From Sphingosinicella sp. (GTDB lineage Bacteria > Pseudomonadota > Alphaproteobacteria > Sphingomonadales > Sphingomonadaceae), in assembly GCF_013911755.1 (NCBI RefSeq), contig NZ_JACESP010000001.1, positions 124,001 to 188,000 on the forward strand: a DNA stretch of 64,000 bases. Direction: 5' to 3'. The notes beneath the pieces are model-generated. The model was not told the origin of the DNA. It saw only the letters and a program-made list of their open reading frames with translations, and did not search any database. The position numbers and the translations under genes were made by a program. Of this stretch, positions 15,553-16,773 are shown in pieces; positions within the stretch are counted from its first letter, which is position 1, and every line of letters begins with the position of its first letter.

Positions 15553-16773
<1,221 letters not shown>

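Follow-up and report, generated by a model that had tools for sequence, protein, structure and literature searches.

Background

Promoters of ccrM that are controlled by CtrA are described for Caulobacter, Sinorhizobium and Brucella (PMC4433202 and PMC2877005 are among the sources), and the locus analyzed in this study resembles them in carrying a CtrA-type box upstream of ccrM. It differs from them in that no recognisable -10 element accompanies the box at the usual spacing, and in that the predicted transcription start is ~75-80 bp away. A second described type comprises the methylation-dependent sigma-70 promoters of the GcrA/CcrM system, such as ctrA P1 and mipZ in Caulobacter, with which the locus shares a GANTC site between -35 and -10 and the presence of a GcrA gene in the genome. 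Unlike these promoters, the ccrM regions compared here display a fixed phase of two GANTC sites, one at about +7 to +10 of TTGAC and the other at exactly +19, as read from sequence only, and Sphingosinicella keeps the first of the two sites alone.

Statements on GcrA are drawn from PMC7403470, PMC3667746 and PMC7987155. In the last of these, ccrM already figures among the core targets predicted for GcrA across orders of the Alphaproteobacteria, and the binding determinants of GcrA are described as still unclear, which weighs against the sigma-70 core promoter proposed below. Methylation control of ccrM itself is called most probable in Caulobacter in PMC3973325. Finally, a synthetic Caulobacter promoter in which GANTC overlaps a CtrA box is presented in the Fig. 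6A legend of PMC5172544 with evidence that CtrA occludes methylation. The idea of a contest between CtrA and CcrM is therefore not new; the overlap considered here differs from the published one in being natural and in not being conserved.

The ccrM locus and its CtrA-type box

The window, i.e. the whole stretch of 64,000 nucleotides that was analyzed, contains ccrM downstream of rnhB, and its closest named relatives by protein are Sphingosinicella, with 98% identity to S. microcystinivorans. The genome encodes both regulators of interest: CtrA was identified with NCBIfam NF045991 (424 bits versus a cut-off of 350) and is 84% identical to Caulobacter CtrA, and GcrA was identified with PF07750 above its cut-off (E 1.9e-42). 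The genes and the elements of the box region are as follows.

14860..15474, + strand: rnhB, ribonuclease HII (Pfam RNase_HII), upstream neighbour; start codon approximate
15553..15567, + strand: CtrA-type box TTAA-N7-TTAA, TTAATGGAATCTTAA; exact match, TTAA halves invariant in 6/6 genus genomes
15559..15563, + strand: embedded GAATC, a CcrM site, not conserved (4/6 congeners; AAATC in L004 and L006)
15568..15573, + strand: GTTAAC, further CtrA-type half-site adjoining the box, near the GTTAAC position of other sphingomonad ccrM upstream regions
15670..16773, + strand: ccrM, GANTC adenine methyltransferase (Pfam N6_N4_Mtase and RAMA; orthologues)

The sequence-only reading of this DNA had claimed an exact CtrA-type TTAA-N7-TTAA at 15553-15567 with GAATC in its spacer, and the sequence is as claimed. 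It had also taken the downstream gene for the GANTC methylase gene ccrM, an assignment in agreement with the two Pfam domains, which are those expected for CcrM.

The box, ~100 bp 5' of the ccrM ATG (15670), is the one TTAA-N7-TTAA site in the window; shuffled sequences contained 0.02 on average, and two of 100 shuffles had one site. In the whole genome the motif is not over-represented (seven sites versus 13 for the reversed control pattern), so the box is a putative CtrA site. None of the genome's six other TTAA-N7-TTAA sites contains GANTC. The half-site GTTAACCAT is enriched in the genome (15 versus 1 for the control), and its sites adjoin, among others, ctrA, a sigma-54 activator gene and a chemotaxis receptor gene.

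Conservation of the box and of the embedded GANTC

The genus alignment consisted of six ccrM regions (the window, L004, L005, L006, L007 and L095), ccrM having been found in all six genus genomes. Variation inside the box is confined to spacer positions. Three regions have TGGAATC as the spacer, one has TAGAATC and the remaining two have TGAAATC, leaving GANTC in four of the six. The GANTC sites at 15473, 15587, 15596 and 15610, which likewise precede ccrM, are each present in all six. Conservation in the genus extends beyond the TTAAs to the entire block surrounding the box; L007 has A in place of G at the start of the adjoining GTTAAC at 15568. On the gene-region tree the embedded GANTC requires two changes, and none of 200 bootstrap trees explained it with a single change; no inner branch of this tree reached the support threshold, and a single origin is formally compatible with the supported branches.

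The relatives searched comprised 80 loci (L004-L083, up to 300 bp upstream), 76 of which lie outside the four Sphingosinicella-type loci. An exact TTAA-N7-TTAA was found in seven of the 80, namely the four Sphingosinicella-type loci, Terasakiella L056 and the metagenome-assembled genomes (MAGs) L067 and L077. GANTC lay within the exact box in two loci (L005 and L007), both Sphingosinicella, and in none of the 76 more distant relatives. A class-wide set was formed by the best 60 ccrM upstream regions by match score; of 115 genomes, 86 had a match, and the set omits G000 and G006, which were too near a contig end, and the 24 weakest. The exact box occurs in four of these 60 regions and GANTC within an exact box in none, whereas a one-mismatch box overlaps GANTC in two (G048 and G074). 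In 199 family genomes the combined pattern TTAANNGANTCTTAA was not enriched (seven sites versus nine for the control); when six of the seven loci were tested for adjoining ccrM, L140 alone, of the same genus, qualified, and the seventh is the window's own.

The sequence-only reading had expected the TTAA-GANTC-TTAA arrangement to be conserved in related sphingomonads, and had taken lack of conservation in close relatives as evidence against it. The TTAA-N7-TTAA part of this expectation stands, with the box in 6/6 congeners, but the embedded GANTC does not (4/6, 0/76 and 0/60); the lack of conservation thus counts against the embedded site and not against the box. The further claim, that CtrA binding and methylation meet in the box, was not borne out, given AAATC in 2/6 congeners, 0/76 and 0/60 in exact boxes, and the absence of enrichment in the 199 genomes. 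As far as these sequence comparisons go, the putative CtrA-type box holds up, and the embedded GANTC as a conserved feedback point does not; no sign of selection on the overlap of GANTC and box was seen in the genus, the 76 relatives, the 60 class-wide regions or the 199 genomes.

Predicted core promoter between the box and ccrM

GANTC is about threefold under-represented in the window (102 sites versus 303 in shuffles), and the cluster of sites upstream of ccrM therefore stands out. Several of these sites surround a predicted promoter, the elements of which are listed below.

15473..15477, + strand: GAGTC that overlaps the stop codon of rnhB and opens the conserved GAGTCnTTTnnGCnACACC element (element 15473-15491); 6/6 congeners
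15587..15591, + strand: GAATC, conserved CcrM site; 6/6 congeners
15592..15618, + strand: 12-bp dyad with a 3-base loop, two GANTC sites around TTGAC; kept in six Sphingosinicella, weaker in L006
15596..15600, + strand: GACTC, conserved CcrM site; 6/6 congeners
15601..15606, + strand: TTGACG, predicted -35; 6/6 congeners, TTGAC with nearby GANTC recurring at ccrM in other alphaproteobacteria
15610..15614, + strand: GAGTC in the predicted promoter spacer, CcrM site; 6/6 congeners, TTGAC-N2-5-GANTC recurring class-wide
15625..15630, + strand: CAAGGT, weak predicted -10 (A at position 2, T at position 6) with an 18-bp spacer; xAxxxT in 6/6 congeners

A consensus scan for promoters and terminators called nothing, which, together with the weakness of CAAGGT, was counted against this core promoter. 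Also against it, GANTC at +19 of TTGAC is absent in 6/6 Sphingosinicella, and the single match to the full class-wide signature in the window's own genome (C46) is not at ccrM. The shorter pattern TTGAC-N4-GANTC occurs 12 times in the genome versus three for the control; eight of the 12 sites lie inside open reading frames as called by a simple script, so that the short form alone is not diagnostic.

One extra upstream GANTC of the window forms the dyad with the site at 15610 around TTGAC. Both arms of this dyad contain GANTC, and it might be of importance at the DNA level or, as a leader hairpin, in the mRNA. Folding of 15592-15690 gave a z of -2.53, and 97.2% of the pair cells of 15592-15618 are kept; the changes are one-sided, none falling on both sides, and are not above shuffles. 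On account of this pattern of changes, and despite its good folding, an RNA leader hairpin was rejected as an explanation in its own right and was retained within one of the alternatives discussed below. An Rfam scan of 14800-16900 returned one match, far under the gathering score.

A TTGAC-GANTC signature before ccrM across Alphaproteobacteria

TTGAC-N0-7-GANTC was found in 68 of 82 ccrM upstream regions. For positional analysis, TTGAC with a GANTC after it served as the anchor in the upstream regions, and 57 non-redundant regions outside Sphingosinicella were compared, mostly sphingomonads by record title with a few MAGs named to class or phylum. GANTC lies at +9 of TTGAC in 35 of the 57 and at +8 in nine, and at +19 in 52, a figure that becomes 43/48 without bias, as nine of the 57 were anchored on the +19 pattern itself. 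Further GANTC sites lie near -80, -100 and -129, and the regions hold on average 5.9 GANTC per 180 bp versus 1.0 in Markov shuffles.

The same regions place CtrA-type half-sites upstream of the signature. GTTAAC occurs at -55 to -5 of TTGAC in 29 of the 57 versus 0.4 expected, TTAAC begins at -39 in 23, and the exact box is found at -55 to -5 in none. In the window, the TTAAs are at -48, -37 and -32, and the box spans -48 to -34.

In the class-wide set, TTGAC-N14-GANTC was found in 25 of 59 regions versus 0.01 expected, and TTGAC followed by GANTC after N2, N3, N4 or N5 was found 5, 15, 8 and 8 times, each versus less than 0.1 (total 36 versus 0.26 in 59 regions). All 25 of the N14 regions have an xAxxxT hexamer at a sigma-70 spacing of 17 bp from TTGACn, which means that GANTC directly abuts the -10 and that its final base is also the first of the hexamer. 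Against the reading as a core promoter, the tight TTGAC-GANTC-GANTC core is present in 24 and absent in 36 of the 60 class-wide regions, and xAxxxT is found at +23 in only 16 of the 57 regions outside the genus.

The full signature, TTGAC-N14-GANTC-A-N3-T, has 55 sites in 59 family genomes versus seven for the control, with a match in 38 of the 59. Thirty of the 55 loci were fetched: 19 are ccrM, five are ftsK-like and one is a ribonucleotide reductase gene, six of the 11 non-ccrM loci being named. The gene set sharing the full signature might, judged by these neighbours, be what a GcrA/CcrM regulon could look like. The ftsK-like loci are those of other sphingomonads (L201, L209, L215, L219 and L229), and Pfam identified FtsK_4TM in L201, L215 and L229.

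The two-GANTC spacing was not found described in the open-licence literature searched. It is possible, though we hold the idea at somewhat less than even confidence, that much of the Alphaproteobacteria shares a ccrM core promoter in which a CcrM site in the sigma-70 spacer is followed, roughly one helical turn further on, by another that adjoins the -10. GcrA would read the CcrM mark there to drive ccrM, giving a self-reinforcing methylation switch that each replication fork would reset; CtrA would act separately upstream, and a direct contest at the box would occur in some Sphingosinicella species only. The class-wide signature of the ccrM promoter is the more interesting result of this study, and it refines a known kind of promoter.

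Proposed control of ccrM and alternative explanations

We give slightly better than even chances to an explanation in which 15473-15670 is a composite control region of ccrM, with a sigma-70 core of the GcrA/CcrM type and CtrA as a separate upstream input, and in which the embedded GANTC turns over between Sphingosinicella species and is mostly incidental in a GANTC-rich region. The predicted core would use TTGACG at 15601 with the GANTC at 15610 in the -35/-10 spacer and those at 15587 and 15596 just upstream. CcrM would methylate the conserved core sites and GcrA would read the methylation, providing a feedback of CcrM on ccrM whose sign is itself a prediction. CtrA would bind the box ~75-80 bp upstream of the predicted start, and not as a -35. 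In species with the embedded GANTC there would be at most a local competition of CtrA and CcrM, in which CtrA may shield the box site from CcrM. The conservation of the box in 6/6, of the embedded GANTC in 4/6 and of the four other GANTC sites in 6/6 was counted in favour of this explanation, as were the lack of a single-change bootstrap tree for the embedded site, the recurrence of TTGAC with GANTC before ccrM class-wide and in the family genomes, the density of GANTC and the GTTAAC half-sites in the 57 regions, the prediction of ccrM as a core GcrA target in PMC7987155, and the presence of the GcrA and CtrA genes. The self-feedback of CcrM that the sequence-only reading proposed is plausible, in line with the Caulobacter control called probable in PMC3973325, but its route through the box site is not supported.

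The original form of that proposal, in which the embedded GAATC is where CtrA binding meets methylation by CcrM, giving a tight direct feedback on the activator site, appears very unlikely. The exact overlap of GAATC and box, the GANTC in four of six congeners and the competition of CtrA and CcrM at the synthetic Caulobacter promoter (Fig. 6A legend of PMC5172544) argue for it; AAATC in the two remaining congeners, the lack of a single change in any of the 200 bootstrap trees, the lack of enrichment in the 199 genomes and the 0/76 and 0/60 counts in exact boxes argue against it, despite the two one-mismatch boxes among the 60 that overlap GANTC. We consider it rather unlikely that the box is instead the -35 of a classical CtrA-activated promoter with a start at ~15592-15598, the GAATC at 15587 overlapping its -10 and the mRNA opening with the hairpin 15592-15618. 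In PMC4287350 the 5' base of the CtrA full site is at -39 in some Caulobacter examples and at -49 or -14 in others; TGAATC at 15586 is similar to the Caulobacter -10 consensus; and in Terasakiella L056 and the MAGs L067 and L077 an exact box precedes the ccrM match by 66-67 bp. The folding of 15592-15690 and the retention of the hairpin pairs would also fit such an arrangement, but the one-sided hairpin changes, at the level of shuffles, do not favour it, nor does the downstream TTGACG with GAGTC in 6/6, which fits the class-wide core; moreover, the CCAT extension, which is enriched in this genome, is missing from the box.

Alternatively, the TTAA-rich block might be an AT-rich upstream element or the site of another regulator that matches TTAA-N7-TTAA by chance. 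The conservation of the entire block, and not of the TTAAs alone, is consistent with this, as is the lack of genomic enrichment of TTAA-N7-TTAA, whereas GTTAACCAT is enriched. We regard it as unlikely, since across the six genomes the variation inside the box is confined to the spacer, GTTAAC half-sites lie at a similar distance in other sphingomonads, and, according to PMC4433202, CtrA is bound at ccrM in Sinorhizobium and ccrM falls on CtrA depletion.

Under the composite explanation, CcrM self-feedback would probably act at a core-promoter signature common to many alphaproteobacteria and not at an overlap peculiar to certain species, and this signature can be tested in laboratory strains by single-base changes. 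For the box itself, a natural comparison is available in sister Sphingosinicella species with and without GANTC in an otherwise equal CtrA box.

Other elements near ccrM

Most of the compared regions have the GAGTCnTTTnnGCnACACC element at -127 to -129 relative to TTGAC. Other genera often have TTGAGTC and GACTCAAnATnTnGTGG after it, a partial dyad with further GANTC sites; an NrdR-like reading of the upstream dyad of other sphingomonads was considered, by eye only. Just 3' of ccrM, an inverted repeat of 25 bases (16787-16811 and 16840-16864, located by eye) may be a terminator or an intergenic repeat.
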